Shown one piece after another: positions 4,528 to 42,309 of a stretch of DNA of 47,650 nt. Each line of letters opens with the position of its first letter. Position 1 is the stretch's first letter. The DNA comes from a virus, in the IMG/VR virus record IMGVR_UViG_3300042295_001659, positions 1 through 47,650 of that record; one strand, 5' to 3'. The notes under the pieces are model-generated. The model saw only the letters and a list, made by a program, of their open reading frames with translations. It ran no database searches and had not been told where the DNA came from. Position numbers and translations under genes: made by a program.

Positions 4528-4535
4528 TATTACCC
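4528..4535 (-). promoter_or_regulatory. Candidate late promoter (GGGTAATA), minus strand
   Basis: On the minus strand this reads GGGTAATA, one mismatch from the GGGTAAAA octamer found upstream of structural genes here. It lies back to back with a perfect plus-strand copy at 4538-4545, separated by two bases, so together they form the inverted repeat TTACCCACGGGTAA. It would serve the operon 4526-1849. Confidence 0.45.
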
Positions 4536-4537
4536 AC

Positions 4538-4545
4538 GGGTAAAA
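4538..4545 (+). promoter_or_regulatory. Candidate late promoter (GGGTAAAA), plus strand
   Basis: A perfect GGGTAAAA octamer that ends 7 nt before the ATG at 4553. If it is a -10-like element the transcript would be nearly leaderless for that ATG, so a slightly later start is possible. It is the only perfect copy serving a plus-strand gene, and it faces the minus-strand copy at 4528-4535. Confidence 0.5.
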
Positions 4546-4552
4546 CGCGGTT

Positions 4553-5365
4553 ATGGAAAAGATCGGAAGAATAGATATCGGAACCCCGGTAATCGAGAGA
4601 TTGCCGCCTCCCGTGATGCTGAGGCCTGAGCTCCCATCTCTAGCCATCCCAAAACCTGTGGTTGATGTGCCGCAGCCGAGAGTGGAATATCCCACTTTCC
4701 TACTCCCCCCACCGCTCTCCGCCCCAACTCCGCAAACTTCGGGGGAAACCGAAAAGTCGGCTCCAAAGAGGGAGAAGGATGTGGTGAAACCCCAACCTCA
4801 ATCGCCCCCCGTAATTCCACCAACACCCCAAGTCATTTTGCCCCCACAGCCACCTATTGAGATGGTTGAGTCACCAAAACCGATCGAAACTCAAAACACA
4901 ATTGAGATTGCGGGCCATGACATCAACGTTCCCACAGTGAAGGAGGTTGCTCAAGCTTCGACCACAGCCGTCATCGGAACCTCCGCAACTTTGGCGACCG
5001 CTATGATCTTCAATCAGGCAAGACGAGTCATGGGCGAGACTGTGAGTAAGGCCGTGAGGAATAAATTCAAGATCAAACTGAAGTACGTGAAGCCGGTCCT
5101 CCATATGGTTTATGAGAAGGACGGTGTTACCGTGTTGGAGTATTCTGAGGAGGGAGTGAAGACTCTTGCCACCTCTATCGAGAACCCAGAGCAATTTTTA
5201 CGAGACCTCATCCAATCAGACGAACTCTTCGAGGCGGACCATCGCATCGTCATCGACGAACCGATCAAAGCGCACTTCACGCGTGAAGGAGCGAAGAGGT
5301 TTAACTACTTCGCCCCATCAAAGAAGATGGCCAGAAGATTGGCCGCAAGAATCACTTTCGGTTGA
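4553..5365 (+). CDS. Proline-rich, probably membrane- or virion-associated protein
   Basis: A 270-residue protein on the plus strand. Residues 1-120 are very proline-rich (PPPVMLRPELP, PPPLSAPTP, VILPPQPP). A hydrophobic Ala/Thr-rich segment at about 130-155 (AVIGTSATLATAMIFN) could cross a membrane, and the basic C-terminal half (165-270) looks globular. I recognise the layout (proline-rich arm, then a membrane segment) from cyanophage genomes, where such proteins are thought to be structural; this is recollection, not a search. It is preceded by a GGGTAAAA motif and converges with the minus-strand gene ending at 5352, overlapping it by 14 nt. No enzymatic motif is visible. Confidence 0.75.
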   Translation: MEKIGRIDIGTPVIERLPPPVMLRPELPSLAIPKPVVDVPQPRVEYPTFLLPPPLSAPTPQTSGETEKSAPKREKDVVKPQPQSPPVIPPTPQVILPPQPPIEMVESPKPIETQNTIEIAGHDINVPTVKEVAQASTTAVIGTSATLATAMIFNQARRVMGETVSKAVRNKFKIKLKYVKPVLHMVYEKDGVTVLEYSEEGVKTLATSIENPEQFLRDLIQSDELFEADHRIVIDEPIKAHFTREGAKRFNYFAPSKKMARRLAARITFG

Positions 5366-5882
5366 CGACCACATCGGCACAAACGGCGTAGTAAGGCGAT
5401 TGTGGGTGGAAGTCGATTCCTGACTTTTTAGCCTCACCACACTTCAGTAGACGCACTAACTCAAAGTCGAGTTTGGCTTTGGCGGTCTCAGCGATCTGCC
5501 TATTTGTTTCGGCTTTCGCCCTCTCCTTGCAGAGGGCCACAGCCTCATTGTCGAGGGGCACACTAAAGGTGGCAGCGATTCCTGGACTCAGTGAGTGGGA
5601 TCCGTAAGATTCTGGGTCCCACGGTTGATTAACAAAAGTGTTTACAAATGGGGATATGCTGAGTGAGGCGCCTTGGCACACGACTCCAGAGCCAAAACTC
5701 TGAGACATGTAAGGACCATTCAAGACTTGCACGCCTTGGTTGATAACGCTTCCAGACGATGAAGCGGATGGTCCCGCAATGTTAGTCACCGGTTTTTCTT
5801 GTGCGAAAACCGGCAGAACTATTGCGTAAACACAGAGAGGGATTTGGTATAGGAGTCTTGCTCTGTTGTGCGCTCTATCCAT
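5352..5882 (-). CDS. Secreted protein with signal peptide, unknown function
   Basis: A 176-residue protein with a Sec-type signal: basic start (MDRAHNRARLL), hydrophobic core (IPLCVYAIVLPV) and a likely cleavage after VFA at about residue 27. The mature part opens with a Ser/Gly/Asn-rich stretch including GVQVLNGPY, then a helical Ala/Lys/Glu region and a C-terminus with GIDFHPQSPYYAVC. Four cysteines lie in the mature part and could form disulfides outside the cytoplasm. A good Shine-Dalgarno (AAAGAGAC just before the ATG) supports the start, although it overlaps the upstream gene by 64 nt. It is the last of three consecutive signal-peptide genes. I have a sense of similar proteins in other cyanophages, function unknown. 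Confidence 0.8.
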   Translation of the reverse strand: MDRAHNRARLLYQIPLCVYAIVLPVFAQEKPVTNIAGPSASSSGSVINQGVQVLNGPYMSQSFGSGVVCQGASLSISPFVNTFVNQPWDPESYGSHSLSPGIAATFSVPLDNEAVALCKERAKAETNRQIAETAKAKLDFELVRLLKCGEAKKSGIDFHPQSPYYAVCADVVVNRK

Positions 5883-6178
5883 GTCTCTTTTGCAACCCCT
5901 GGGCTCATGATCGTTTCACTGAACTGAAAAGGAGCGCCCTGTGTCTGAATTGTGTAATTTGCTCCTGGCTTGGGGTTTGCGGGGATATTGATATTCGTGC
6001 CGGTCACGGTGTACGAGGTGCCGGTTGTGTAGTCGATCTGATGGACCGACTCGGTTACTTTAGTTTTTGTGGTTGTGCTGCTATCCACAGTGCCCCTAGT
6101 AAAATTGGGGACGACAGCTTGAGCCATCGCCCCCATGGGCACACCTAGCAGCATGAGAGCCACTAGGAGGATTTTCAT
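5819..6178 (-). CDS. Secreted Thr-rich protein, paralogue of the upstream gene
   Basis: A 119-residue protein with a clear signal peptide (MKILLVALMLLGVPMGAMAQ, cleavage expected after AMA at about residue 19). The mature part is Thr/Ser-rich and beta-like. Its segment TSYTVTGTNINIP and the later FQFSET match ATYTVSGTNVDVT and FSFSET in the protein of the gene at 6175-6582, so the two are diverged tandem duplicates. The ATG overlaps the upstream TGA by 4 nt. Small soluble secreted beta proteins in a phage could be virion surface decorations or act in the host periplasm; neither is shown by the sequence. Confidence 0.8.
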   Translation of the reverse strand: MKILLVALMLLGVPMGAMAQAVVPNFTRGTVDSSTTTKTKVTESVHQIDYTTGTSYTVTGTNINIPANPKPGANYTIQTQGAPFQFSETIMSPGVAKETWIERTTEQDSYTKSLSVFTQ

Positions 6179-6582
6179 TCGAACACGCTCAGCTCGATAG
6201 AGCGCTGGATGACTCCCTCTGAGCCGGGACCACCAGCTGTGATTGTGGCCACATTTGTTGGACTCAGGGTTCCTGCGAGGGTTCCTGCAGTGCCAGCGGT
6301 ATGAACCTGAGTTGAGGTGTCGGCAATAGCGGTCGTCTCTGAGAAAGAGAAAGCTTGGCCGTTGGTGAAGACGTCGTAGGAACCCGCTGTTCCTACCTTA
6401 CCGAGTGTGGTAACGTCAACGTTTGTTCCGGAGACCGTGTAGGTCGCTGATGTCGGGGTTGTGACAGTAACAGTGGGGTTTACAGTTAGTTGCACCGAAT
6501 CGGTGATAACGTTGCGAATCTCAGCTGCGTGAGTTGCGCCTGCAAACAGGACAGTGGTTGCCAGAAGTGTTAAACGCTTCAT
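6175..6582 (-). CDS. Secreted Thr/Val-rich protein with signal peptide
   Basis: A 135-residue protein with a signal peptide (MKRLTLLATTVLFAGATHAA, cleavage after THA or HAA). The mature chain is rich in Thr, Val, Ser and Gly with alternating beta-strand character, including ATYTVSGTNVDVT and QAFSFSETT. It is a paralogue of the next gene downstream. It is the first gene after a perfect GGGTAAAA motif (6605-6612), whose end lies 22 nt before the ATG, which places this trio with the late-type units. No catalytic motif is seen. Confidence 0.8.
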   Translation of the reverse strand: MKRLTLLATTVLFAGATHAAEIRNVITDSVQLTVNPTVTVTTPTSATYTVSGTNVDVTTLGKVGTAGSYDVFTNGQAFSFSETTAIADTSTQVHTAGTAGTLAGTLSPTNVATITAGGPGSEGVIQRSIELSVFE

Positions 6583-6604
6583 GGGTAACCGTAATTGTAT
6601 TAGA

Positions 6605-6612
6605 TTTTACCC
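6605..6612 (-). promoter_or_regulatory. Candidate late promoter (GGGTAAAA)
   Basis: Perfect octamer on the minus strand, 22 nt upstream of the signal-peptide gene starting at 6582. Its GGGTAA part also encodes the last Gly and the stop codon of the small gene at 6607-6750, so the signal and the coding sequence share bases. Confidence 0.55.
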
Positions 6613-6750
6613 TTGGCCACGGTAGCGCTTTTTACGAGGGCGACTGGGGGTGGCGGCAAGGTTGGTATTCCGAGAGCGGCCTTGAGCCGACATCTTCGGC
6701 TTGCTCTCAATCAGTTTACCACCAGAGAGGGATGTTTTAGGTTTCGCCAT
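6607..6750 (-). CDS. Small basic protein, 47 residues
   Basis: A 47-residue, very basic protein starting MAKPKTSLSGGKLIESKPK and ending RKKRYRGQG. Its ATG lies inside the end of the preceding gene (14 nt overlap). I recognise this MAKPKTSLSGGKLIE-type protein as a short conserved protein in cyanophages with no known function. The charge suggests nucleic-acid or membrane-surface binding, which is inference. Its last codons overlap the candidate late promoter for the following operon. Confidence 0.8.
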   Translation of the reverse strand: MAKPKTSLSGGKLIESKPKMSAQGRSRNTNLAATPSRPRKKRYRGQG

Positions 6751-6982
6751 TGGTTACTCGTTGTGAGTGTTCAAGTAGTGTGCGCATGAACTCCCGTTGG
6801 AATGCAGCTTGCCGCTCGGGAGTCTCTTGGAAATAAGCGAGCCACTCAGCACACTCAGTGTCATCGGGAGCACTTAAGTGAATGAGTAACCCGCCGTCTT
6901 CCGTGTCCTCAAACTCAACTGATAAATCATCAAGGGCCGACGGACGCGGCCACCAGATCTCAGTTGGGTTGGCGTAATCCAT
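6737..6982 (-). CDS. Small acidic hypothetical protein
   Basis: An 81-residue acidic protein beginning MDYANPTEIWWPRPSALDD, with a beta-like segment (VEFEDTEDGGLLIHLS) and a C-terminal amphipathic helix. It has no membrane segment and no recognised motif. It overlaps the 31-residue membrane-peptide gene by 1 nt (TGATG) and the basic-protein gene by 14 nt, placing it in the hli transcription unit. Function unknown. Confidence 0.75.
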   Translation of the reverse strand: MDYANPTEIWWPRPSALDDLSVEFEDTEDGGLLIHLSAPDDTECAEWLAYFQETPERQAAFQREFMRTLLEHSQRVTNGET

Positions 6983-7077
6983 CAGACGTCGTACGTTTTC
7001 GAGAGTTGGTTAACTGAGTGGAACAGCAGGACCAACCAGATTATAGACGTGGTGGTGAAGAGGAAACCGGTTCCCAT
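6982..7077 (-). CDS. 31-residue membrane peptide directly following hli
   Basis: A 31-residue reading frame starting MGTGFLFTTTSIIWLVLLFH with a single hydrophobic helix at about residues 4-20 and a short polar tail. Its ATG overlaps the hli stop (ATGA) and its TGA overlaps the next ATG (TGATG), which argues strongly for translation. The size resembles one-helix photosystem or cytochrome b6f subunits (Psb/Pet families), but the sequence matches none that I can recall. A thylakoid-membrane partner of the Hli protein is an attractive but unproven idea. Confidence 0.65.
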   Translation of the reverse strand: MGTGFLFTTTSIIWLVLLFHSVNQLSKTYDV

Positions 7078-7277
7078 CACCAGATTCCGGGGATGATTTG
7101 TCCAGTCAGTGCGTAGGCGCCCATGGCTGCAATCACGCCCAGCATCGCCAGACGGCCATTGAGCATTTCAGCTTTTTCGTTGTGAGTCACGGAGAAGTCC
7201 TTGTTGGGATCGATGTACATTTTAGGTTCTTTGGCCCAGGCATTCATTTGGCCAAATTCATTTTTGGTTACGGTCAT
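7077..7277 (-). CDS. hli: High-light-inducible protein (chlorophyll-binding one-helix protein)
   Basis: A 66-residue protein with the diagnostic motif AEMLNGRLAMLGVIAAMGAY at residues 36-55 (ExxNGRxAMxG), the chlorophyll a/b-binding-like helix of Hli/SCP proteins. These bind pigment and protect photosystems from excess light. Cyanophages carry them to keep the host's photosynthesis running during infection. The N-terminal 35 residues are soluble and lead into the single thylakoid helix, and the protein ends TGQIIPGIW, typical of the phage form. An extended -10 box at 7302-7310 ends 24 nt upstream of the start. The gene is followed without a gap by the 31-residue membrane peptide. Confidence 0.97.
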   Translation of the reverse strand: MTVTKNEFGQMNAWAKEPKMYIDPNKDFSVTHNEKAEMLNGRLAMLGVIAAMGAYALTGQIIPGIW

Positions 7278-7301
7278 GTCTGAGCCGCAGAGTACACCAA
7301 T

Positions 7302-7310
7302 AGTGTAACA
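7302..7310 (-). promoter_or_regulatory. Extended -10 promoter for hli
   Basis: On the minus strand this reads TGTTACACT (TGn plus TACACT), 24 nt upstream of the hli ATG. It lies in the 54-nt gap between hli and the preceding small gene. No convincing -35 is visible, as expected for an extended -10 promoter. Confidence 0.55.
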
Positions 7311-7331
7311 AGTGTTAACTCCCAGTACACC

Positions 7332-7475
7332 TCACTCTTCCGACTTTTCTTCCTTTTCGCGCTTCTTCTGAAGCTTGCGGAACTGAAGCCACTTCTTGAA
7401 GTATTCCAGCTCAGCAGCGGAGTAGAGCTCTGGATGCTTGAGAGCGATCTTAACCAGTTTCTTCTTCTTTGTCAT
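7332..7475 (-). CDS. Small charged protein, 47 residues
   Basis: A 47-residue, Lys/Glu-rich helical protein starting MTKKKKLVKIALKHPELYSA and ending in an acidic/basic tail. The pattern LKHPELY followed by ELEYFKKWLQ is one I recognise from small conserved cyanophage proteins. The ATG overlaps the speD stop (ATGA), so it is co-translated with speD. Function unknown. Confidence 0.8.
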   Translation of the reverse strand: MTKKKKLVKIALKHPELYSAAELEYFKKWLQFRKLQKKREKEEKSEE

Positions 7476-7825: not shown

Positions 7826-8006
7826 GGATGAGTTGGTAATTACTGTCTAAACTAAGTAAGGTCTCCTTGTCGAAGAAGAAAATGTCATAGTCGGTGCCGC
7901 TTGGAAAGAACACCTCGTATTGAGTCTCAGTTTCGTTGAAGATGAAAGCCTCTTCGCCCTCACCCCCCAAAACTGGATACATTTTGATCTTTCTGATTCG
8001 ACCCAT
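7809..8006 (-). CDS. Small hypothetical protein upstream of speD
   Basis: A 65-residue protein starting MGRIRKIKMYPVLGGEGEE. The basic N-terminus is followed by an acidic beta-rich part (AFIFNETETQYEVFFPSG, then DYDIFFFDKE). A TTG one codon earlier is possible, but the ATG is preferred. It overlaps the thioredoxin-like gene by 47 nt and speD by 17 nt, so it belongs to the same unit. No recognised domain. Confidence 0.7.
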   Translation of the reverse strand: MGRIRKIKMYPVLGGEGEEAFIFNETETQYEVFFPSGTDYDIFFFDKETLLSLDSNYQLIHAEIL

Positions 8007-8313
8007 CAATGATCTCCGCCAACTTCTCTTTCAGTTCCTTGGCGGTTTGTTCGCCAACGATGTGGCCAAGATATTTTTTACCCTCAGTGACGATGTATGC
8101 TGGAAGATCCAAGGTGTAGTCCGCGTTGCACGCGTACTGCTCCACATATTGGGCGATCATGCACTCAAACGCGTTCTCGTTATTGAGGCTGAGGAGATTA
8201 TCTAAGTTGACCGCTTCGGTCTTCAAATCCAACTCCGAAACGACAGACTTATCGTACGCGCCCATGGCCTCACACACGGGGCAATTCAAATCGAAAACTT
8301 TAGTGACGAGCAT
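7960..8313 (-). CDS. Thioredoxin-like protein (CPVC active site)
   Basis: A 117-residue protein with an N-terminal beta strand leading directly into the redox motif CPVC (C11, C14) and a later cis-proline-type element LPAYIV (P71), the two landmarks of the thioredoxin fold. Cys51 and Cys62 are extra. It is short compared with standard thioredoxin, closer to glutaredoxin or phage NrdH-like size. It could donate electrons to the phage ribonucleotide reductase, but that partner is inferred from the presence of nrdAB. It overlaps the upstream membrane-protein gene by 14 nt. Confidence 0.8.
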   Translation of the reverse strand: MLVTKVFDLNCPVCEAMGAYDKSVVSELDLKTEAVNLDNLLSLNNENAFECMIAQYVEQYACNADYTLDLPAYIVTEGKKYLGHIVGEQTAKELKEKLAEIIDGSNQKDQNVSSFGG

Positions 8314-10084: not shown

Positions 10085-10224
10085 TGCGAAACTCTCCGAA
10101 ACTCTTCCATAAACTCTGGACCCATTAGTTCTTCGATCTCCCCTGGCTTCAGGTTGTTGATCAGCTTCATGCACTCCTTGAATCGACGATCGTTCTCCTC
10201 CTCGTCGGGGATGCTGTCAGTCAT
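10081..10224 (-). CDS. Small acidic protein (47 residues)
   Basis: A 47-residue protein beginning MTDSIPDEEENDRRFKECMK, strongly charged and helical, ending EEFRRVSQ. Both ends are ATGA junctions with neighbouring genes, which supports translation. It may be a small regulator or anti-host protein, as small acidic phage proteins often are, but nothing in the sequence specifies this. Confidence 0.7.
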   Translation of the reverse strand: MTDSIPDEEENDRRFKECMKLINNLKPGEIEELMGPEFMEEFRRVSQ

Positions 10225-10459: not shown

Positions 10460-11068
10460 TCAAACGTAAGCCTCCAGTTCGGGATACAGCTTGCGAGCGC
10501 GATTGCGGAACTTGACCACATAAGATTGGACTGCCTGTTTGGTGAGGCCATACTTCTCAGCGATCTCGAAGTTACGAAGCTCACGGTTGCCGAACAGGCC
10601 GAACTTATCGCACAGAATTTGGGCACGCTTGGTATCGATGCCACCGCAGATCTCAACCATCATGTTGTGAATGATTTGAGAGGGCGGATCCATCTTCAGC
10701 TCCTTGCTCTCGGAGGGGTCCTCGAGGCGCTTGGCGAGGTCGGACTGCTCCACAGAAGTGGTGAAGTGAGGATGCTTCAGTTCGCGTCGAGCGAACGATT
10801 GAACACCACCACGAACGTAGGTGAACGCCAGAGTTAGGAAGCGAAAGCCACGCTCAGGCTCGAAAGCGAGGGCGGCCCGATGAACAGCGAGACGGCCTTC
10901 CTGAACGAGATCGTCGTACATGTGCGCAGGAGCCATCCAACCGTACTTGCGTGCGTACTTGTGAATCAGTGGCTCGTACTTCCGAATGAGGCGAGAGGTT
11001 GCTCGCTCGTCACCCAGCTTCACACGGGTCACCAGTTCCAGTTCTTCTGCGCGAGTGAGGTTTGCCAT
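10460..11068 (-). CDS. Phage-encoded sigma-70 family RNA polymerase sigma factor
   Basis: A 202-residue protein with both core-binding and DNA-binding parts of a sigma factor. Region 2 covers about residues 26-95: RLIRKYEPLIHKYARKYG, then DDLVQEGRLAVHRAALAFE and FRFLTLAFTYVRGGVQSF (the -10-recognising segment). Region 4 lies at about 142-195, with a helix-turn-helix FEIAEKYGLTKQAVQSYV. Region 1.1 is absent and the middle is short, as in group 3-4 sigmas. It would redirect host RNA polymerase, in the manner of T4 gp55. The gene has its own host-type extended -10 promoter overlapped by a palindrome. It is the best candidate reader of the GGGTAAAA motif in this window, which is inference. Confidence 0.88.
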   Translation of the reverse strand: MANLTRAEELELVTRVKLGDERATSRLIRKYEPLIHKYARKYGWMAPAHMYDDLVQEGRLAVHRAALAFEPERGFRFLTLAFTYVRGGVQSFARRELKHPHFTTSVEQSDLAKRLEDPSESKELKMDPPSQIIHNMMVEICGGIDTKRAQILCDKFGLFGNRELRNFEIAEKYGLTKQAVQSYVVKFRNRARKLYPELEAYV

Positions 11069-12614: not shown

Positions 12615-12827
12615 TTAGGAAGCGCTTGGGAAGAAGCCGCTGCTAGTGTGGGGCTTGGGTTGTTGTTTTGTTCGAGGCGTTAATGTGTCCTCTTTTTGAG
12701 GATATTTGGCAATGTTGTCAATTATCTCGTTGACTTTGCCCTTACTTTCGTTAGAGAAATCCCCGAAATATCTCGCGACGCTTCCATCGTCTGGTGCGTC
12801 AGATTGGACATTAAGAACTCCTGCCAT
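12615..12827 (-). CDS. Small hypothetical protein overlapped by the GIY-YIG gene
   Basis: A 70-residue protein from the ATG at 12827 (MAGVLNVQSDAPDDGSVARY), preceded by a strong Shine-Dalgarno (AGAGG) at good spacing. The middle is charged and helical (KGKVNEIIDNIAKYPQKED) and the tail is Thr/Pro/Ser-rich. Its first 105 nt overlap the 3' end of the GIY-YIG endonuclease gene in another frame, so the gene probably existed before the endonuclease inserted upstream. Function unknown. Confidence 0.65.
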   Translation of the reverse strand: MAGVLNVQSDAPDDGSVARYFGDFSNESKGKVNEIIDNIAKYPQKEDTLTPRTKQQPKPHTSSGFFPSAS

Positions 12828-13420
12828 TGGACCTCTTTCTTTAACGAAGTGCAAATTCCCCGTTTTTTCTGGACACGGGTTATTCCTGATTTGTCTGAGA
12901 CTATTCCTGTCACAAGACACATCCAGCGCTTTGCGCGAGACTTTTTAACCTTTTCAACGTGCTCATTAGACAGAGGAACTCCGGTTAGTGCTTCGCTGAC
13001 CTTTCTTTTGTGTTCATCTGAACAGGTCCAAGAACGCCCGTAATTAGGATTCAGCGAACCTAATTTGGACAACCTCATATTTTTCCTATGACTTTCAGTC
13101 TTTGGCTTACTCATTTTCTCCAGTGTTAGAGGAGTATGAGGTCTACCAGTAACATCAAATCCGGTCGATGACTGATACGCTTGATTTGCGAATGAAAGGT
13201 CTGTTACAACATTGAGAGACCGCTGCCATTGAATTTCTGCCTGAAGGGCTGCTTTTGCTGACTTATAGACCCCTAGAATGATCTTCCCTACGGGGGAAAA
13301 TGAGGGATCAGAACAGGACCCTAAATAGAGATCGTAGGGATTGTCAGTAGAGTGCTTCCCAACATAGTTTCTCCCGTCAGGCCCCTCCTCATAAGCAAGG
13401 TAGACGGTATGGTAAGTCAT
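12722..13420 (-). CDS. GIY-YIG homing endonuclease (Seg-like)
   Basis: A 232-residue protein. The N-terminal GIY-YIG nuclease fold is visible as TVYLAY (residues 5-10) and NYVGKHS (18-24), with Glu62 a candidate metal ligand. Residues about 103-165 hold DNA-binding repeats (NUMOD3-like: GSLNPNYGRSW, SDEHKRKVSEALTG), and 166-189 (MCLVTGIVSDKSGITRVQKK) match the C-terminal minor-groove module of Seg-type enzymes. No flanking intron is visible, so it is a free-standing mobile gene. The last 35 residues run over the next gene in a different frame and look non-conserved. It overlaps the upstream gene by 4 nt. Confidence 0.85.
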   Translation of the reverse strand: MTYHTVYLAYEEGPDGRNYVGKHSTDNPYDLYLGSCSDPSFSPVGKIILGVYKSAKAALQAEIQWQRSLNVVTDLSFANQAYQSSTGFDVTGRPHTPLTLEKMSKPKTESHRKNMRLSKLGSLNPNYGRSWTCSDEHKRKVSEALTGVPLSNEHVEKVKKSRAKRWMCLVTGIVSDKSGITRVQKKRGICTSLKKEVQWQEFLMSNLTHQTMEASRDISGISLTKVRAKSTR

Positions 13421-13800
13421 CCTAGTGGCAGACGAAGTGAGGGAACGTAGCCATTCTCGCTCACACGACGAACGCCGATGATAAACTTGGCTTTGAAGTA
13501 CTCACCCTCTTTCGGGATGAGGTAGCTCCACTTGATAATTTGCCAGAGCGGAACCAGAAAGAAAGAATACTCCAGGCTCTCACAACCTTTCGCGTAGAGT
13601 TTGCAGAGAAGGCGGGGAGTGAATAACGAGCAGAACACCTCCACCTCATGGATCTCACCGATCTTGTCGGCGAGATTTGCTGGATCGTCCACGCACTGAA
13701 ACCCTTCGGACTCCAGCTGATGTTTTAGGCGAAGCTGCTTTTGGGCTTCATAGGAGAATGCGTCCACGGGGTCTGTAGATGGGGAAGTGGGTATTGTCAC
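13417..13800 (-). CDS. Hypothetical protein (127 residues, GTG start)
   Basis: A 127-residue protein taken from a GTG at 13800 that overlaps the helicase TGA (GTGA). A longer frame from an ATG at 13887 would overlap the helicase by 91 nt and is less likely. A GGGG purine run before the GTG can serve as ribosome-binding site. The product includes EGFQCVDDPANLADKIGEIH and a hydrophobic SFFLVPLWQIIKWSYLIP segment. It is soluble overall and unrecognised. Its position directly after the helicase suggests a replication accessory role, which is inference. Confidence 0.65.
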   Translation of the reverse strand: MTIPTSPSTDPVDAFSYEAQKQLRLKHQLESEGFQCVDDPANLADKIGEIHEVEVFCSLFTPRLLCKLYAKGCESLEYSFFLVPLWQIIKWSYLIPKEGEYFKAKFIIGVRRVSENGYVPSLRLPLG

Positions 13801-15779
13801 TGTTTTACCCCACCGTACACTTTCTCCTTGGCCTGTCGACGAATCTTCTCCGCTCGGTCGGGTGAGTACTTCTGATTGTTGAGCCATTCGTCGTAGGTTT
13901 TGGATGCTGGGTTGAGAAGTCGTTCTTTGTCTTGATCGCTCATGGTGTCAAGAAGGAATTGAGCCTCCTCCATGATCTCATCTTCGGCGTGGCGAGTGTT
14001 TTCCCAGTTCTCGATGACATAAGTCATGCCACCGCCAACCTTGAAACCATCACGCATCACGATCCGCTCCATCATGGTTTTCACCAGTTCTGGGGCTGTC
14101 TTGTTGTTGTACATGGTGGCCTCCTCTTCCGAGTAGAAGTCAAGGCACTTGCTGACAGATTCCCACCGCAGTTCACGGAATCCCTGATAGTAGTGGGTGC
14201 TAGGACGACCAGCGGCCTCCCACTGCTTTTTCATCTTGGACATCAGATCCACACAACTGGGATCAACACCCACAAAGTAGAGGGACTTTAGGTGATCAGC
14301 TAGGATGTGTGGAGTCAGTTCCGGCATCTGATACGAGTCAACGCCAGTCCGTGCTGCGTGTGCGAAAGCCATTGCATTGACGAGCGCCTGCGAGACGTCC
14401 GCTTTGAAGCGGATCCTCTGGCGGGTCGTCCAGTACCGCACTTCAACCTGGAGCCGGTTAATTGACGGATCTTCAACATCCGTAATGACTTCCCAGAAGC
14501 GGTCAGTCGCGAGCCGTAGACACCAGAGGTAAAGAGCCTCAGGAGAGACCCCGAGTTTCTGGGCCAGAAAAGGAATATGCGCACGCGGCCTGAGGTCAGG
14601 AGAACCCTCCGACGCAGTGCCCTGTAGGTGCTTTTGATTCTTGAATACCTCGTACTCCCGATAAGTTGAGAGGATCTTGATGCGATCGATAATCCCAGGG
14701 TCAAGCTCGTAGGCAAAGTTCGCATTCCAATCGTTTGAGTTAACGATGATCGTGCAACGCGGCCAGATTTGCTCCGAGTTCTGGAATTTTTCCTCCGTCT
14801 GGAATAGGCCATTCGTGATCAGGATCTTGGTTTCTTCAGCGGACAGGAATGCCCGCAGGGATTTCATCGCGGTGTCATCTTTGTACGCAATGTCTGCAGT
14901 TGCTGCCGCCTTGAGACCGAATCGGTCTTCAGTGGACTTGAAGGTGTGAGTGTTGAAGCCACACTTTGAGAATGCGGCGGTCATGCCGTTGAACACCGTG
15001 GATTTGCCAAGGCCCGCATCCTTACCGACAACCACAGCCGCCATACGAGCCGTGTGATCTACTGGAGTGGAGAAGCCTGGAGGAAGGTGATTGGCACGGC
15101 CGACACCAACACGACCGAGAATCAGCTTGAGCAACTCACGTTCAGCGTGAGGGAAGATGGTGAATACGTCTTCGAGTCCGACGTCATAGAGAGCGGAATC
15201 AAACCACTTTCGTGCAGGAACCCAAATGCGAGGATTTCGAACAGAGTGGTTACCAGTAAGGGAGCCGTCAGGATCGAATGTTTGACCATAGTCCAGAACG
15301 TCGTGAATGTTCTGATTCGACTGAATGCGCCTCATCTTCAGCAGACGGTCTGTGAAGGAGAATAGATCGGATTCACCACCCTTTGGACGGAAAAGTGGTT
15401 GCCAGAAGTCACGCACCTCACTCTCAGCGCCGTCAAAGACCGCTTCGATACGCGCAAAATCCTCCAGAGTGGAGATATCCTGGAGGGGCTGGAAGCTGGC
15501 TGGATAGTTGATCCCTTTGACCGGCGGTGGGGAGGCCGGCTTCAGAATACGATGATTGATATGCTCCGCGCCTTCGCAGAGTTCAACAGTGTAGAAGTGG
15601 GTTTTTAGAAGTTGAACGCCTTTTGTGTAGAGCTCAGAAAGCGCACTCGCTTTGGGTTTGTCTTCGCTCTTTTTGTCCTTTTTGAAACGCTCGCCGCGCG
15701 GCTTACGCTCTTTAACTTCGTTGATGATGCTGACAGACTGCGGATCTGTAAGTGGTCCGCCGCTGTACTTGTCCGACAT
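13797..15779 (-). CDS. SF3-type (D5-like) replicative helicase
   Basis: A 660-residue protein from the ATG at 15779 (MSDKYSGGPLTDPQ). The ATPase core has a Walker A GKDAGLGKST at about 252-261, a Walker-B-like ADIAYKDDT at 295-303, and a sensor strand TIIVNSND at 343-350, followed by a DRIKIL arginine-containing element. This order matches superfamily 3 helicases of the DUF5906/D5 type that unwind phage and virus replication forks. The N-terminal 240 residues have no obvious primase metal site. The C-terminal part is helical and may bind DNA. It heads an operon with its own promoter at 15808, after a strong terminator. T4-like cyanophages use a gp41-type (SF4) helicase, so this points to a different lineage. 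Confidence 0.8.
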   Translation of the reverse strand: MSDKYSGGPLTDPQSVSIINEVKERKPRGERFKKDKKSEDKPKASALSELYTKGVQLLKTHFYTVELCEGAEHINHRILKPASPPPVKGINYPASFQPLQDISTLEDFARIEAVFDGAESEVRDFWQPLFRPKGGESDLFSFTDRLLKMRRIQSNQNIHDVLDYGQTFDPDGSLTGNHSVRNPRIWVPARKWFDSALYDVGLEDVFTIFPHAERELLKLILGRVGVGRANHLPPGFSTPVDHTARMAAVVVGKDAGLGKSTVFNGMTAAFSKCGFNTHTFKSTEDRFGLKAAATADIAYKDDTAMKSLRAFLSAEETKILITNGLFQTEEKFQNSEQIWPRCTIIVNSNDWNANFAYELDPGIIDRIKILSTYREYEVFKNQKHLQGTASEGSPDLRPRAHIPFLAQKLGVSPEALYLWCLRLATDRFWEVITDVEDPSINRLQVEVRYWTTRQRIRFKADVSQALVNAMAFAHAARTGVDSYQMPELTPHILADHLKSLYFVGVDPSCVDLMSKMKKQWEAAGRPSTHYYQGFRELRWESVSKCLDFYSEEEATMYNNKTAPELVKTMMERIVMRDGFKVGGGMTYVIENWENTRHAEDEIMEEAQFLLDTMSDQDKERLLNPASKTYDEWLNNQKYSPDRAEKIRRQAKEKVYGGVKQ

Positions 15780-22781: not shown

Positions 22782-23494
22782 TACCAGTTCACCGGAAGTT
22801 TGAATGCGTTAGTGGCCACACCACCAGAAGTTCTGTAGTTTGCTCCGAAGTTGCGTCCACCCACATTCAAACCAGATCCAGGACCTGCTAAAGCTGCCCG
22901 ACCCTTTAAGGAGTCTAAACTCGGGATAGTGCCTGCAAAATCGGCTGAGAAGTTCGTGTTTTCTGAGAATGCGGGAGCACTTTGGGGCTGCGCTTGAGTC
23001 TGTGGTCCAGCGTTGCAAGGGACCACTGAGAACACGATGTCAGTTAGGGTGTAAGCTCCGCCGCCGTATTCAGAATCGGGAAGCTGATTGACGATCCCCA
23101 TTGGTACGCTGATTGACCCGCGATTTGCGGTGCCAGAGGGAGCAAGACCGGAAACTAGATTAGAACCGATGCCGCCGCCAAGAAAGTTTGAAAGCCCCTG
23201 CTCAACGAAACCCCTTGTGGCATTGATGCCTACAACGGCGACTTGGGTCGTGACCGCATTAACCAGTCCGTTGCCGACGGACGGTGGCACCAATGAACTT
23301 ACCTGGCTCAGAAGGTAGTTAGATCCGTCATCTAACGTGAAACCACTAGCGTTCTGTACCGCTCCAGACAGGATGGGATTGACTGAGAAAGCAGCCTTAC
23401 TTGTTAGTGAGTTGGAAATACCGGTGGAGAAATCATTGCCTACACCGGCGATGATGGTATTGACGAGGCCACCACCAAAATTCGTGAAACTCAC
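22781..23494 (-). CDS. Tail-module structural protein, unknown family (GTG start)
   Basis: A 237-residue Gly/Asn/Ser-rich protein beginning with GTG (read as MSFTNFGGGLVNTIIAGVG) that overlaps the previous stop as GTGA. It has hydrophobic alanine and glycine segments but no clear membrane helix and no catalytic motif. The opening MSF(T/S) and Gly/Ser composition resemble the next gene, so both may be components of the same baseplate or tail-tip assembly. Part of the late operon from 24159. Confidence 0.6.
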   Translation of the reverse strand: MSFTNFGGGLVNTIIAGVGNDFSTGISNSLTSKAAFSVNPILSGAVQNASGFTLDDGSNYLLSQVSSLVPPSVGNGLVNAVTTQVAVVGINATRGFVEQGLSNFLGGGIGSNLVSGLAPSGTANRGSISVPMGIVNQLPDSEYGGGAYTLTDIVFSVVPCNAGPQTQAQPQSAPAFSENTNFSADFAGTIPSLDSLKGRAALAGPGSGLNVGGRNFGANYRTSGGVATNAFKLPVNW

Positions 23495-24132
23495 TTCTTC
23501 TTCCTCTTCGTATCAGCTGCTGGCTTGAAGAGCTTATCCCGAGAGGCTTTTTCAAGGTGGTACGCAAGATGCCAGTCTCCAGCATCATCCTTACACAGCT
23601 CAAAGTTAAAACGTTTTTTATCGTGCTCGAACGTTCCTACGAACTTATCTTCCTGCCGGCAGAAGCCACCAGCTTTACTCGGGGCCTTTCCGCTTGAATC
23701 TCCTACACTGTCGATTTCCTGCCCGAAAACAGATTCAATGGCAGACTTAAACATTCTCCCAATACGATTTCCGTATTCCATCTCGGTGACTTCAGCAAAG
23801 TCCTCACTATCATAGATGAGTCCTTCCTCGTCGTCCCTGTGATACACCTCATCGAGGGAGATGCTTTCAATGTCTTCAGGATTGGGCCACTCTTCCGGGT
23901 CCACCTTTGCCAGTTGGTGGATCGCCTCCTCAACCTGCCAGTCCTCGAGTTCTTCAGTGAATTCAAAAGTGTGGATGCATCCCAGAAGTGAGATGTCGCC
24001 GTCGCTGTACTCGTGTGTCAAATACTTCGAGTAGGACTCGGGAATACGCGCAAAAACGCCGCCCGAACCCTGAAGGAGGGTTTGGACAGCGCGCAATGCC
24101 TGAGTCTGATACTGACTGTCTAGACTGTGCAT
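23491..24132 (-). CDS. Acidic protein at the head of the tail operon
   Basis: A 213-residue acidic protein starting MHSLDSQYQTQALRAVQTLL with a basic end (DTKRKKK). It has a long Glu/Asp-rich middle and an SAIESVFGQEID segment. It is the first gene after the perfect GGGTAAAA motif at 24159-24166, and its start is preceded by an untranslated stretch of 26 nt. Position before the tape measure would suit a tail assembly chaperone, but I see no programmed frameshift (slippery heptamer) and the sequence is not recognised. Confidence 0.6.
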   Translation of the reverse strand: MHSLDSQYQTQALRAVQTLLQGSGGVFARIPESYSKYLTHEYSDGDISLLGCIHTFEFTEELEDWQVEEAIHQLAKVDPEEWPNPEDIESISLDEVYHRDDEEGLIYDSEDFAEVTEMEYGNRIGRMFKSAIESVFGQEIDSVGDSSGKAPSKAGGFCRQEDKFVGTFEHDKKRFNFELCKDDAGDWHLAYHLEKASRDKLFKPAADTKRKKK

Positions 24133-24158: not shown

Positions 24159-24166
24159 TTTTACCC
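24159..24166 (-). promoter_or_regulatory. Candidate late promoter (GGGTAAAA), tail operon
   Basis: Perfect octamer on the minus strand, 26 nt before the ATG at 24132. It shares bases with the stop codon of the 2OG-oxygenase gene (Leu-Gly-stop). It would drive five tail genes, 24132 down to 16892. Confidence 0.6.
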
Positions 24167-26545: not shown

Positions 26546-26978
26546 CTGTTTTGCGAGGATTTTTGTCGGGGCGCCCTTTGCGGGATGTGGATCTTTTGGG
26601 AATACCCCATTCAATGAGGTAGTTGTTAATGCATCGAGCACTAGTATTGTAGCGTTCAGCGATGGTTACAGTGCTGTCACCTTTGAGGTAGGCCTCAATA
26701 ATTTCCTCCTTCTTTTCTCTTACGTCTGACCGATACTTTCTTTTTGTCCATGGCCTGTTTTGCCTCATCCGTTCTCCTGCTGCTTTAAGGCAGGCTTGTT
26801 GAAGATCCTTTGGTAGAAGCTTCCATCCTGGCTGTCTGAAATCTACCATAGGCGCAATTTCAGGAAATAGGACCAAATCTAAAGCATGATCGTAAGCATG
26901 TTCATATTCTGACTTCCACTCAACGTAATCGTCTGTGCCACCTCTACTTCTAGCAATAATGTGGTGGAGATGCATCAT
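26523..26978 (-). CDS. HNH-type endonuclease with helix-turn-helix domain (putative homing endonuclease)
   Basis: A 151-residue protein starting MMHLHHIIARSRGGTDD, with a His-His core and the HxxxxDH/HAYDHALDL element of HNH nucleases. Residues about 95-125 form a helix-turn-helix (GDSTVTIAERYNTSARCINN) that could recognise DNA. The C-terminus is basic (RKGRPDKNPRK). The stop overlaps thyX by 23 nt and the start overlaps the upstream TGA (ATGA). Compact HNH-HTH fusions are typical free-standing homing endonucleases. The active-site call is moderate. Confidence 0.7.
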   Translation of the reverse strand: MMHLHHIIARSRGGTDDYVEWKSEYEHAYDHALDLVLFPEIAPMVDFRQPGWKLLPKDLQQACLKAAGERMRQNRPWTKRKYRSDVREKKEEIIEAYLKGDSTVTIAERYNTSARCINNYLIEWGIPKRSTSRKGRPDKNPRKTDGYFRKH

Positions 26979-30927: not shown

Positions 30928-31388
30928 TAGGGGAGAGCGGGGAGAGAACTGATATCGATGCTAAGAGTTACACCGCCTGAGAGTCCGCCCCCTGCAAGTC
31001 CAGACCCAGCTGTAACTCCGGTGATAGCATTGACCCATTGAGTAGCTGACCCATTTGTCCGAAGAAATTTCCCTGACTGCCCACTTTGGTTAGGGAGAAT
31101 AGCTGCAGCAGCGGCTGCTTGAGAAGTTGCGCCAGTTCCGCCGTTTGCGACACCAAGCACGCCACTCATGGTCATGGTCCCAGTTTGGGTCACTGGACTG
31201 TCTGAAAAGACCAAACCAGTTGAACCACCGGAGACGCCCACTGAGGTTACCGTACCGATAGGCTGTCCACCAGCACTGGCCGAAATTGTACCGTCTGGCG
31301 TAATGGAAATGTTAGTTCCGGCTTTAATGGCACCAACAACCCCGGGACCTCCGGGGACTTCCATCAGCTGAGCTTTATTGAGAGCCAT
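30927..31388 (-). CDS. Tail fibre protein, short (AQ-M-PGGPG N-terminus)
   Basis: A 153-residue protein starting MALNKAQLMEVPGGPGVVGA, the N-terminal anchor shared with the genes at 31433 and 36124, then AGTNISITPDGTIS and repeats of the GVxxGTGATSQAAA type (VANGGTGATSQAAAA) known from phage fibres. It overlaps the Gly-rich protein by 1 nt and is the first gene after the GGGTAAAA at 31421-31428. It looks like a truncated or linker fibre subunit. Confidence 0.75.
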   Translation of the reverse strand: MALNKAQLMEVPGGPGVVGAIKAGTNISITPDGTISASAGGQPIGTVTSVGVSGGSTGLVFSDSPVTQTGTMTMSGVLGVANGGTGATSQAAAAAAILPNQSGQSGKFLRTNGSATQWVNAITGVTAGSGLAGGGLSGGVTLSIDISSLPALP

Positions 31389-31420: not shown

Positions 31421-31428
31421 TTTTACCC
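31421..31428 (-). promoter_or_regulatory. Candidate late promoter (GGGTAAAA), fibre unit 30927-31388
   Basis: Perfect octamer on the minus strand, 32 nt before the ATG at 31388, lying 5 nt after the stop codon of the preceding fibre gene. Confidence 0.55.
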
Positions 31429-38847: not shown

Positions 38848-38868
38848 CTCTTCAATCAGTTAATACAG

Positions 38869-38876
38869 TTTTACCC
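38869..38876 (-). promoter_or_regulatory. Candidate late promoter (GGGTAAAA), fibre unit 31433-38847
   Basis: Perfect octamer on the minus strand, 21 nt before the ATG at 38847, fused to the Gly-stop of the preceding gene. The bases after it (CTGTATTAACTG) are AT-rich, as near a start site. Confidence 0.6.
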
Positions 38877-39359: not shown

Positions 39360-39361
39360 TG

Positions 39362-40405
39362 TCAGAATACTGGTGTGTCGATGATTGCGATATCGAACCC
39401 AACGAGTCCTCCCTTTAATCCGATATTGTATAAGCCCGCGTTGCTCCAGTCATTCCACAAAAGCGTGGTCCCACTGGAGTTCCGGAAGCCTTGCGTGGTG
39501 AATGACAGGAGCTGAAAGTCGCAGTAAGTAACGGCTTTTCCCGCACAAGTGATAGACTGGTTCTTCTCACCAGTACCCGGTGGAAGCTCCGACTGAGTTC
39601 CAGTAAGCAGACCGTAATTAGTGTTGGCTAGAGCGTTTTGGAATGTAATACGAACAATAGGATTATTAGGGTCATTGATGAATGACACTGACGAAATGTT
39701 GTATGACTCAAGTATTGTGAAAGTCGCCGGCGTCGAACCTTGATCGCATGAAACGCAGACATAGGCCAAAATGGCTGCTTTAGCCAAAGATCCATCAACT
39801 GAGATTGTGCCATCAGGCGCAATTGCAATGCCCGCGCCAACACGCACCGAACCAACACTCAATCGAGTGGCCAAAGCTGCTGAGATCGTACCAGTTGATG
39901 TCAACGGTGACGGCGAACCGATAAGACCGGGGCCAACGTTGATACTTTGAACACCGAATCGTGCTGTGGGGATCGAGATGATGCCTGCAACATCAACATC
40001 GATGTTGTCACCAACAATCACTCCACCTTCTGTGGTTTTAGAGGCTGGTTCAAGATCGATTTGGCCTGTGGTAGTGATTGGGCCTCCAGAAAGACCTGCT
40101 CCAGTCAGAATTCGAGTGACTGTACCCGAGCTTGCGTCAGGAGGAATGTTGTCGAGTTTGGATTTGTCGGCAGCGGACATGCTTCCCGCTGCGTTGATTG
40201 TCGCGGGGAGAATAGAAACGACGGCGTCTTCGGTTCCATTCGATACCACAATTGGCAGGAGGCCCGTGACTGACTGAACCCCCAATGGAGAGAAAATCAG
40301 CCAAGCTTGAAAGGGCTGGCTCCACATGTACTGGAGAGCACCAGGTTGCGCCGGAACCGGATAGAGTTGCCCATCGACTGGGTTGAGGGGGAAAATGTAA
40401 GCCAT
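39362..40405 (-). CDS. Tail fibre protein (FP-NP-GQLYP anchor)
   Basis: A 347-residue protein starting MAYIFPLNPVDGQLYPVPAQ. Residues about 50-215 contain GGxITTTGxIxLxPAS and IxVxIDGTI-type fibre repeats; the C-terminal part (from about 220) is a distinct beta domain with VRITFQNALANTNYGLLTG. Likely one of several alternative fibre subunits. It overlaps the next fibre gene by 1 nt. Confidence 0.75.
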   Translation of the reverse strand: MAYIFPLNPVDGQLYPVPAQPGALQYMWSQPFQAWLIFSPLGVQSVTGLLPIVVSNGTEDAVVSILPATINAAGSMSAADKSKLDNIPPDASSGTVTRILTGAGLSGGPITTTGQIDLEPASKTTEGGVIVGDNIDVDVAGIISIPTARFGVQSINVGPGLIGSPSPLTSTGTISAALATRLSVGSVRVGAGIAIAPDGTISVDGSLAKAAILAYVCVSCDQGSTPATFTILESYNISSVSFINDPNNPIVRITFQNALANTNYGLLTGTQSELPPGTGEKNQSITCAGKAVTYCDFQLLSFTTQGFRNSSGTTLLWNDWSNAGLYNIGLKGGLVGFDIAIIDTPVF

Positions 40406-41169
40406 TACTCGAGAGACACTCCGTAAAATGTGGCTCCAGCTGGGGGAGCGGTTGTGAATAGGATGAGGGAACCGTTTGTTGTGAAGTTAGTTGGGGCGGC
40501 TTGAACAACACCTCCAACAAAAATGAGAAGAGATGAGGTGGAATTGGGCGTGTACGGCACACCCGAAACCGTCATCGTGAACGATAGTTGAGCCCCGTTA
40601 AACTGTGGAGCCAAGGTGTCCAAAACTATGAAGAAACCCGTGCTAACAGTGTTAATTGTTCCGTCGGGGTCAATGGTGATCCCCTTTCCGGCCTTAACTC
40701 CCCCTAAACCGTTATTTCTCGGTGGAGTCAGAGAGATCACGCCTTGAGAACTTACCTGAGTTCCTGCGCCCGGTTGAACTCCCCCGAGAGAAATATCCGT
40801 GGCGGGGAGGAGATTGATGGTACCAGTTGTTGTGATAGTTTGGTTTGCGCCTGGAGCACCAATTCCGATACCGGCAGTAACCCGGGTCACGGAGCCAGCT
40901 CCGGACGGTGGGATAGACTCAACTTTCCGCTTGTCTTCAGCCGACATTGAGCCAGACTGGGTGACAGTTGCGGGTCGTATCGCAACGATGGGATCCCTCG
41001 GTGGACCATCAATGAAGATCGGCGCCTGTCCACTAACACTCTGGATCGTATTAGTTACGGTTAACCAGGTTCCTTTTGTGGCGTTGTAAGTGTATTGTTG
41101 AGCGCCAGGGATCGGAGGGTCTGGATAAAGCTGGCCATCAATGGGATTGTTTGGGAAATTAAGAGCCAT
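40405..41169 (-). CDS. Tail fibre protein, short (FP-NP-GQLYP anchor)
   Basis: A 254-residue protein starting MALNFPNNPIDGQLYPDPPI with a single set of fibre repeats ([37 protein letters not shown]) and the shared C-terminal domain (LLIFVGGVVQAAPTNFTTNG ... PPAGATFYG). It is the shortest complete fibre with both modules, so it defines the minimal unit. Confidence 0.8.
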   Translation of the reverse strand: MALNFPNNPIDGQLYPDPPIPGAQQYTYNATKGTWLTVTNTIQSVSGQAPIFIDGPPRDPIVAIRPATVTQSGSMSAEDKRKVESIPPSGAGSVTRVTAGIGIGAPGANQTITTTGTINLLPATDISLGGVQPGAGTQVSSQGVISLTPPRNNGLGGVKAGKGITIDPDGTINTVSTGFFIVLDTLAPQFNGAQLSFTMTVSGVPYTPNSTSSLLIFVGGVVQAAPTNFTTNGSLILFTTAPPAGATFYGVSLE

Positions 41170-41170
41170 A

Positions 41171-42268
41171 TTAGAACCCCAAAGCCTGCCCGTTAAAAGT
41201 CGCCCCAGCCGGCGGAGCTGAAGAGAAAACGATATTACTTCCGTTTAGTGAGTACGCAATGTTTGGTGTTTGAAGAATACCACCAACTGCGACAAAAAGT
41301 GAGTTTGGAGAGGATGGAGCATAGACCTGACCGCCAACTCTCATTGGGAAACTTGTTTGAACGCCGTTGAAAGAAGCGGAGATGTCGTCAATTTGTTGGA
41401 ATGACTGACCGTTTGGAATAAACAAGCGCCCACTGAAGGTTGTTCCGATCGGTGGTGGAGCAACGAAACGGATTTCTTGATTGTTGATAACGGCGAAAGT
41501 CGCAGGAGAAGGCTGCAGAATTCCACCTAGAACGATGAAGAGGTTGGCAGGCTGTGAGACTGTGGCGGCGTTTCCACCGATCCTTAGCGGGAATTGTGTA
41601 CGCGTTCCATCAAAGAGCGTGCTGACATCGTCAAGCAGCGCAAATGATCCCGTAGAAGAACCTTGCCCAGCGGCACTAATGGTACCATCGGGAGCGATTG
41701 TGATATTGTTTCCCGCCTTAACGCCACCGATATTTCCATCAGTCGGAGGACGCAAAAATATAGTGCCGGTAGTTGTTATGGTTCCGCCGCCGAGTCCTGA
41801 ACCCGCTGTGATTTGGGTCACTCCGGAAAAGGCTTCGAGTGTGCCATCGGGGAGAATTGTTACCCCTGCGCCAGGTTTGACTCCACCGATCTCGTTTCCA
41901 GTTGCGGGCTTGAGGCTGAGAGTGCCACTTACAGTGATTGGGCCACCTGTCAGGCCCGTGCCGGAGTTTACGCGCGTAACGGAACCGACTCCCGTTGTGG
42001 GGATGGAATCCAATTTTTGTTTGTCGGTAGCTGAGAGTGAACCAGCGGCAGAAGTAGTTGCGGGGCGGATGTTAACAACTGGGACTGTGGCGGTACCAGT
42101 AATTACAATAGGCTCATTACCTAGAACCTGCAGAACGGCTCCGGAAACAAGGACCCAAACGCCTTTGGCCTGTATCCATTTGTACTGAAAAGTCCCAGGG
42201 ATCGCAGGATTGGGATACACCTGGCCATCAAATGGCTGATCTGGGAAATTATACGGAGTAAATGCCAT
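41171..42268 (-). CDS. Tail fibre protein with duplicated C-terminal domain
   Basis: A 365-residue protein starting MAFTPYNFPDQPFDGQVYPN (anchor), then fibre repeats (LTGGPITVSGTLSLKPA, GLGGGTITTTGTIFLRPP, IGGVKAGNNITIAPDGTI). It then carries two tandem copies of the C-terminal domain: LFDGTRTQFPLRIGG ... PPIGTTFSG and SFNGVQTSFPMRVGG ... PPAGATFNG. The duplication is a clear internal module copy. It heads a four-gene unit behind the GGGTAAAA at 42302. Confidence 0.8.
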   Translation of the reverse strand: MAFTPYNFPDQPFDGQVYPNPAIPGTFQYKWIQAKGVWVLVSGAVLQVLGNEPIVITGTATVPVVNIRPATTSAAGSLSATDKQKLDSIPTTGVGSVTRVNSGTGLTGGPITVSGTLSLKPATGNEIGGVKPGAGVTILPDGTLEAFSGVTQITAGSGLGGGTITTTGTIFLRPPTDGNIGGVKAGNNITIAPDGTISAAGQGSSTGSFALLDDVSTLFDGTRTQFPLRIGGNAATVSQPANLFIVLGGILQPSPATFAVINNQEIRFVAPPPIGTTFSGRLFIPNGQSFQQIDDISASFNGVQTSFPMRVGGQVYAPSSPNSLFVAVGGILQTPNIAYSLNGSNIVFSSAPPAGATFNGQALGF

Positions 42269-42301
42269 GCTGTAGGCTAAGAGATGGCCGAGTTAAGTAA
42301 G

Positions 42302-42309
42302 TTTTACCC
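42302..42309 (-). promoter_or_regulatory. Candidate late promoter (GGGTAAAA), fibre unit 38871-42268
   Basis: Perfect octamer on the minus strand starting directly after the TGA of the collar-type fibre gene ending at 42310, 33 nt before the ATG at 42268. Confidence 0.55.

Follow-up and report, generated by a model that had tools for sequence, protein, structure and literature searches.

A conserved octamer as the candidate core of a late promoter class in S-CBWM1-like cyanophages, and a phage sigma factor as its proposed reader

The locus and its octamer copies

The stretch of viral DNA analysed here (the window; 47,650 bases, IMG/VR record IMGVR_UViG_3300042295_001659) reads as a cyanophage fragment and contains eight exact copies of the octamer GGGTAAAA, which an earlier note, made from the sequence of the window, had proposed as the core of a late promoter different from that of phage T4. 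The encoded proteins, which include a primase, a tape measure protein, a sigma factor, NrdB, ThyX and a dCMP deaminase, point to a phage. The nearest named relative was Synechococcus phage S-CBWM1 (55.5% identity for the primase and 44.3% for the sigma factor), the single cultured member of the group found here, and the gene order is like that of S-CBWM1, from ThyX to the tape measure gene, primase, dCMP deaminase, sigma factor, NrdB and on to NrdA. Among the uncultured relatives, contig G001 is close to the window, G023 (34.8 kb) belongs to its close lineage and G004 is a 277-kb relative.

The eight copies compare with 1.05 expected, and none of 100 dinucleotide shuffles of the window reached eight (maximum four), in agreement with the excess over chance and the approximate number reported previously. 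Seven of them are found shortly before gene starts. The copy at 4538..4545 (+) stands 7 nucleotides (nt) before the gene of a proline-rich protein (ATG 4553). On the minus strand, the copy at 6605..6612 stands 22 nt before ATG 6582 (small secreted-type proteins), that at 24159..24166 stands 26 nt before ATG 24132 (tail operon), and those at 31421..31428, 38869..38876 and 42302..42309 stand 32, 21 and 33 nt before three fibre units (ATG 31388, 38847 and 42268, respectively). The 22-nt and the 33-nt spacing are the same in G001, and at 38869 the TAA of the octamer also terminates the gene before it. On recount, all six positions and all six spacings agreed with the earlier note, which had overlooked a seventh boundary copy, conserved in relatives, at 13803..13810 (−). 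This copy stands at the 3' end of the primase gene, where the next gene adjoins. The eighth copy, at 8076..8083 (−), was found inside the open reading frame (ORF) 7960-8313, where it is read as GGT AAA AAA (Gly-Lys-Lys); it was taken as a coding coincidence, and a comparable copy stands in similar coding sequence of G001.

The copy at 4538 faces a variant with one mismatch, GGGTAATA, at 4528..4535 (−), and this divergent pair is kept in G001 as two perfect copies. The variant probably serves gene 3930-4526. The true start of that gene is probably an ATG that lies 24 nt into the longest ORF, because the first in-frame start codon in G001, which aligns with the ninth codon of the window gene, is an ATG that begins MSNLGGF, the counterpart of MTNLGGF in the window. 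For the gene following the primase (13417-13887), the candidate starts are GTG 13800, 2 nt after the octamer, and GTG 13767, 35 nt after it; both were kept, because a Met-Thr-like start 2-4 nt beyond the octamer is common to the window, G001 and S-CBWM1. One-mismatch matches were not enriched in the window as a whole (31 compared to 32.2 expected, exact copies included), and the signal is therefore carried by the exact word.

Enrichment before gene starts in S-CBWM1 and other relatives

In S-CBWM1, for which 177 annotated genes were used (one intron-internal gene was omitted, and a gene across the record start was cut there), 33 of the 34 octamers lie on the coding strand. Twenty-two lie wholly within 60-10 nt before starts, compared to 0.93 expected, and GGTAAAA was the most upstream-enriched of all 7-mers (29/47; 1.3 expected). 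Gene starts in the other genomes were obtained with a crude caller of our own, which on a piece of S-CBWM1 found 46 of 52 annotated stops and placed 33 of the 52 starts identically, so that spacings outside S-CBWM1 carry error. Furthermore, sites at the seams of the 20-kb pieces analysed can be lost, and the last 226 bases of G001 were excluded.

In a pool of eight contigs (the window, S-CBWM1 and six IMG/VR relatives), 91 of 157 octamers were found 12-70 nt before a start compared to 5.1 expected, and the reversed word, used as a control, was found there in none of 21 copies (0.68 expected). Only G003 was kept in the pool, because G003, the second part of G004, G006 and G007 are near copies (91-99.7%); over 48 kb, G020 and G022 show 82.7% similarity. 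When 8-mers upstream of starts were ranked, GGGTAAAA or its one-base shift came first in the window taken together with G001, and in S-CBWM1, G003, G009, G004b and G020. It came second after AAGGGTAA in G018 and second after CCCCCTTT in G022. Four variants were also found upstream of starts, GGGTAAAG (12/43), GGGTATAA (7/18), GGGTAAGT (7/22) and AGGTAAAA (6/26), each with about 0.5-1.1 expected.

Out of 15 sigma-bearing records, 13 were counted whole for the octamer, G005, G008 and G011 included. The counts were one-sided in the ten records with a close relative of the gp055-type sigma factor, the type encoded in the window at 10460..11068 (−): 10/1, 33/1, 0/19, 30/6, 0/5, 0/11, 10/0, 18/0, 18/3 and 21/0. 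These ten include S-CBWM1 itself, and several are near copies of one another. The three records with only a distant sigma contained 7, 1 and 7 octamers compared to 5, 1 and 12 copies of the reversed word. No octamer was found upstream of a start in S-TIM5 (0/11; about 150 of 172 kb), A-HIS1 (0/4; 50 of 56 kb), Mic1 (0/7; 50 of 93 kb) or the distant contig G017 (0/2).

The earlier note would have been refuted by octamers no commoner near starts than elsewhere; they were found to be far commoner there, also in the relatives. An origin by chance or base composition would fit the lack of enrichment of one-mismatch matches in the window. Against it stand the shuffles, none of which reached the observed count, and the independent enrichment in S-CBWM1 and other lineages; the relatives refute this explanation, and we give it practically no credence.

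Five octamer or near-octamer sites of S-CBWM1, at 26663, 65888, 126639, 132342 and 135704, are preceded by the same repeated sequence block (GATGTGAAAGATT with CTGTCCC), which would suit duplication of the whole promoter in one piece.

Conservation at orthologous genes

With tblastn, genes were projected onto their orthologues in nine contigs, among them G003 and the near copy G004b, and orthologous sites were shown to recur at protein identities of approximately 30-70%. Some of the distances are rough, because several projections start well inside the query (e.g., at residue 1121 for the sheath of G020). Before the gene following the primase, an exact octamer was found 25-35 nt upstream of the codon matching GTG 13767 in seven contigs (the window, G001, S-CBWM1, G003, G004b, G009 and G018); G020 has GGGTATAA at this place, and no orthologue was obtained in G022. 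The tail-operon gene 23491-24132 is preceded by an exact octamer in eight of the nine contigs and by GGGTAAGT in G018. The protease gene has an exact octamer in all six contigs that contain the gene (S-CBWM1, G004b, G009, G018, G020 and G022), as has the sheath gene in the same six, 69-108 nt upstream. At the portal gene the octamer was present in five of the six contigs if G020 and G022 are included, in both of which it lies 14 nt inside the projected start; G018 has GGGTAAGA. Octamers also precede fibre starts in G001 similar to those at 31388 and 38847; these two sites were not projected there, because the alignment is only partial.

The orthologues of ThyX, primase, terminase and NrdB had no exact octamer from 140 nt upstream to 30 nt inside the gene; near words occur before them, such as GGGTAAAG 69 nt before NrdB in S-CBWM1. 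For the major head gene and gp096 an exact copy was found in S-CBWM1 alone, and none was found at the tape measure gene of the window.

Anatomy of the sites

The 96 sites located 12-70 nt before a start were analysed together. Spacings of 21-23 nt between octamer and start codon are the commonest (30/96). An A stands just before the octamer in 50 sites; downstream, the sixth base is T in 43, the seventh A in 53 and the ninth A in 49. The T/A pair 6-7 nt after the octamer would be the pattern of a pyrimidine at −1 and a purine at +1 that is expected of a transcription start.

No −35 element was detected, as every column from −50 to −2 was at or below 0.08 bit. Between −28 and −9 relative to the octamer, TAGGC was absent from all 96 regions (1.7 by shuffling) and so was GTTTAA, and a two-part promoter of SigF or SigB type was rejected on these two counts. 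In the same interval GTTT was present in 11 sites compared to 5.2 in shuffled sequences, at no conserved position, and TTGA in 14 compared to 5.5, without a fixed position; part of this excess may be stop codons of preceding genes. Host SigF (group 3), with a host regulon borrowed by the phage, could in principle read the same element, and its −12 element in Synechocystis, GGTAA (PMC2758279), is identical to the core of the octamer. With the TAGGC that belongs near −32 missing throughout, we consider a borrowed SigF regulon improbable.

A signal at the RNA level (ribosome binding, stop/restart or processing) would explain why good copies are in sense orientation, why in 18 of the 96 sites the TAA of the octamer terminates the gene before it, and why a clear Shine-Dalgarno word is present in only 22 (a weak one in 23). 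However, the spacing is at least 21 nt in nearly all sites, too far for a ribosome-binding site, a role that is thereby excluded. The preceding gene ends before the octamer in 70, and the T/A signature stands at a fixed distance downstream, which together make an RNA-level signal very unlikely. Leaderless mRNA was also considered and rejected as too thin, as an ATG was found 6-7 nt after the octamer in 7 of the 157 copies. In the window and G001, sigma70-like −10 words were seldom found upstream of starts (TACAAT 1/29, TACACT 5/30, TATAAT 2/20 and TATACT 1/15).

Taken as it stands in these genomes, GGGTAAAA is very probably a conserved, phage-specific promoter element that acts as a single element.

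Gene classes and the timing of expression

In S-CBWM1, [AG]GGTAAAA was found within 100 nt upstream in 10 of 20 genes with virion-type names, picked by us from the annotation, compared to 26 of 157 other genes (p = 0.0015). A block at 27.4-47.5 kb, which was chosen after the map had been seen and is rich in small unknown genes, had a site at 2 of 39 genes compared to 34 of 138 elsewhere (p = 0.006). The first 160 kb of G004 contain 6 copies of the octamer with one near a start, and the last 117 kb contain 30 with 19 near starts, which may be the layout of an early/late split. We consider it likely that the promoter class is late in S-CBWM1-like (estuarine-type) cyanophages, serving mainly virion genes. 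Thus, the promoter part of the earlier proposal of a late promoter core is strongly supported by enrichment, spacing and orthologous sites, and its lateness indirectly, by the association with virion genes.

Another class of upstream sequence was seen in the first 160 kb of G004 (L020-L027), which by eye is a hairpin-containing promoter resembling TTGTTT-N17-TATAAT. Its repeated cassettes consist of a GGGCGGTTT-type stem followed by TTGTTTCTGC, a loop and GCAGAAACGGTATA, sigma70-like by eye with the hairpin as spacer, and AGAAACGG lies upstream of starts in 14 of 26 copies there compared to 0.5 expected. These cassettes are candidate early promoters with a built-in operator. In S-CBWM1, near 2698, 11209, 17582, 23074 and 28448, a cassette was seen in which TAAGCTGACT and either AGTCA or GTCA come after a GGGCGG/CCGCCC-type stem; it may be an early promoter that carries a palindromic operator.

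Candidate sigma factors

The earlier note had suggested the gp055-type sigma factor as the reader of the octamer. This protein contains region 2 and a region-4-like C-terminal domain, and in the model of the window protein a helical domain stands in the place of region 4 (predicted local distance difference test, pLDDT, 82.7). Its best matches among solved structures were RpoS and SigA/RpoD, and the best family models were RpoS for the window protein and general sigma70/ECF for gp055 of S-CBWM1. In favor of this type, it is present at 23 of the 29 loci of a second phage sigma, the gp045 type, and the other six extend at most 6.5 kb on that side; AGGTAAAA lies 24 nt before gp055 of S-CBWM1, which would suit a late sigma that regulates its own gene; and weak scores were obtained with SigB/SigF models. 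However, a region-4-like domain predicts a −35 element and none was seen in the 96 sites, which makes gp055 the less likely reader. The gp055-type gene of the window is preceded by TACAAT and not by the octamer, and G023 contains a gp045 gene and six octamers without a gp055 type, on a contig that may end just short of that locus. We therefore consider it unlikely that the promoter is read by the gp055 type, and the earlier assignment is probably wrong.

The gp045-type sigma (S-CBWM1 109152-109877, following nrdA) was found at 29 loci, and in nine of the ten loci reached through the gp055 type; the tenth, that of G001, ends before nrdB. It lies directly after nrdA in eight of the nine contigs whose NrdB is 85-94% identical to that of the window, and the ninth (L090) ends inside nrdA. 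The window itself is cut within the start of nrdA, the gene of the ribonucleotide reductase large subunit (1..252, minus strand; 64% identical to S-CBWM1 NrdA over 76 residues; NCBIfam subunit alpha, 1.2e-16), and the gp045 homologue of this phage should lie just outside it.

The best NCBIfam models for gp045 were SigBFG (2.8e-14) and cyanobacterial SigF (3.2e-12). A profile of 22 gp045 members matched Staphylococcus aureus sigmaB with positions 10-199 (whole-sequence E = 3e-11), ending at residue 226 of 256. By our assignment of region names, this alignment would span regions 2, 3 and 4.1 and stop before 4.2. Other sigma matches of the profile end at 188-202 or earlier, and about 20 residues remain in most members. 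A Foldseek search with the gp045 model gave sigma factors and sigma-containing models among the best 50 rows; the template modelling (TM) score by query length was about 0.3, and the search therefore says little about region 4.2. The gp045 type fits better than the gp055 type as the reader, because a SigB/SigF-like region 2 without a −35-reading helix suits a lone GGGTAAAA element. This preference is an argument from fit, and neither assignment is proven; we hold it somewhat more probable than otherwise that gp045 reads the octamer.

Proposed mechanism and points against it

According to the reading that we favor, GGGTAAAA, or more widely GGGTAWRD, would be the −10-type core of a phage-specific class of promoters, with no other strongly conserved element, and this class would drive virion and other late genes of S-CBWM1-like cyanophages. 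Transcription would start about 7 nt after the octamer, which would place the octamer at approximately −14 to −7 and, for the most frequent spacing, would leave a leader of about 15 nt. A gp045-type sigma, which would keep regions 2, 3 and 4.1 without a recognisable −35-reading region 4.2, would direct the host core RNA polymerase to the octamer, and host sigma70-type promoters would serve the early and middle genes. We put the probability of this reading as a whole, a single-element −10-type late promoter together with a gp045-type sigma, at roughly 0.64.

Several observations speak against it. Half of the 20 virion-named genes of S-CBWM1 have no nearby site. In this genome alone (33 sites), weak columns were found at −28 (0.21 bit) and −12 (0.28 bit). 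In G023, which is near the window by its NrdB, 1 of 6 octamers lies near a called start (crude gene caller). The scores of gp045 are far below the curated cut-offs (53.4 compared to 234.35 bits for TIGR02980 and 46.6 compared to 261 for PRK07408), and gp045 is only a distant relative of the SigB/SigF/SigG family. The gp055 types also score, weakly, with SigBFG (1.5e-7 for the window and 4.9e-10 for S-CBWM1) and SigF (1.6e-8), so that family resemblance favors gp045 but leaves gp055 a candidate. The highest-ranking row of the gp045 profile search was not a sigma but the repeat protein 8vd6 (CAP REPEAT), which was set aside because the match covers only a 29-residue stretch. Confidence in the gp045 model, which has one long helix at the C-terminal remainder, is intermediate (pLDDT 74.5; predicted TM score 0.46). 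Nearly every motif-bearing contig of sufficient length contains both sigma types, and co-occurrence therefore cannot separate them.

Two further opposing points concern other genomes. In G014, a homologue of gp045 (44%) is encoded whose region 2.4 is nearly identical, yet the octamer is not enriched over the genome (1 of 5 copies upstream of a start); only the relaxed GGGTAWA was found upstream, at 4/17 in the structural part compared to 0/31 elsewhere, a split chosen post hoc. In S-TIM5, gp108 is SigF-like (E 4e-11) and 27% identical to gp045 over 124 residues, and the upstream word there is GTTTAAAG (22/34 compared to 0.9 expected; 150 of 172 kb), which differs from the octamer. GTTTAAAG was seen to resemble the SigB −35 consensus GTTTAA. 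It is conceivable, at slightly less than even odds, that a captured SigB/SigF-type sigma lost its −35-reading helix and re-invented the logic of T4 gp55 independently, with an S-TIM5-like sister system that uses GTTTAAAG.

Comparison with known promoter systems

Late genes of T4 are served by the element TATAAATA. In agreement with the earlier note, no T4-type element was found in a matching place: this word occurs once in the window, within a gene, and 0-2 times per relative (8 genomes). The T4 late promoter comprises 8 bp without a −35 element (PMC2988020). The likeness to the T4 late system (gp55, gp33 and the clamp gp45) lies in a short −10-type single element without an upstream element, in virion genes as targets and in a phage sigma on the host polymerase, as proposed here. 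Should the seventh base after the octamer be +1, the last seven bases of the octamer and the following base would occupy the place of the T4 element, so that GGTAAAAT would sit where TATAAATA sits, with TAAA in common. In contrast to T4, GG stands here for TA, and the proposed sigma is SigB/SigF-like and would retain regions 3 and 4.1. The annotation of S-CBWM1 lists neither a gp33 nor a clamp, and no homologue search was made for them.

SigB-type promoters of Bacillus and Staphylococcus consist of GTTTWW, a spacer of about 14-15 nt and GGGWAW, the −10 being given as GGGWAW for sigmaB (PMC11156646) and as GGGTAT for B. subtilis sigmaB (PMC9847131). The GGGTAA of the octamer fits GGGWAW exactly, the enriched variants GGGTATAA and GGGTAAGT are also compatible with it, and the best solved sigma relative of gp045 is S. 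aureus sigmaB; unlike in SigB-type promoters, no GTTTWW −35 is present. The SigF promoter of Synechocystis (TAGGC near −32 and GGTAA near −12; PMC2758279) likewise shares the GGTAA core, and gp045 scores with the cyanobacterial SigF model, but its upstream half has no counterpart at the octamer sites. Cyanophage Ma-LMM01 has three expression classes, which differ from the system proposed here in being sigma70-like, with no phage-specific motif found, as far as the accessible part of PMC5780444 goes.

A phage sigma paired with a phage late promoter is a known kind of system, and the octamer variant appears to be new. The motif was not found reported in the literature searched by title and abstract opening, which did not cover the papers on S-CBWM1 (Xu 2018) and S-TIM5 (Sabehi 2012); whole-word searches for GGGTAAAA, GGTAAAAT and GGTAAAA gave no cyanophage match by title or abstract opening. 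With the octamer, a late-gene map of mostly uncultured cyanophages may be read from sequence and some gene starts can be placed, and the octamer and gp045 form a testable sigma-promoter pair. If this reader is confirmed, one-element late promoters would have arisen more than once among phages, and gp045 would provide a natural sigma without region 4.2 for studying recognition without −35 contact.

Other genes of the window

A homing-endonuclease-like gene (12722-13420) adjoins the gene downstream of the primase, and the protein encoded at 44942-46546 is of tail-fibre type, collagen-like and rich in Gly, Pro and Thr.

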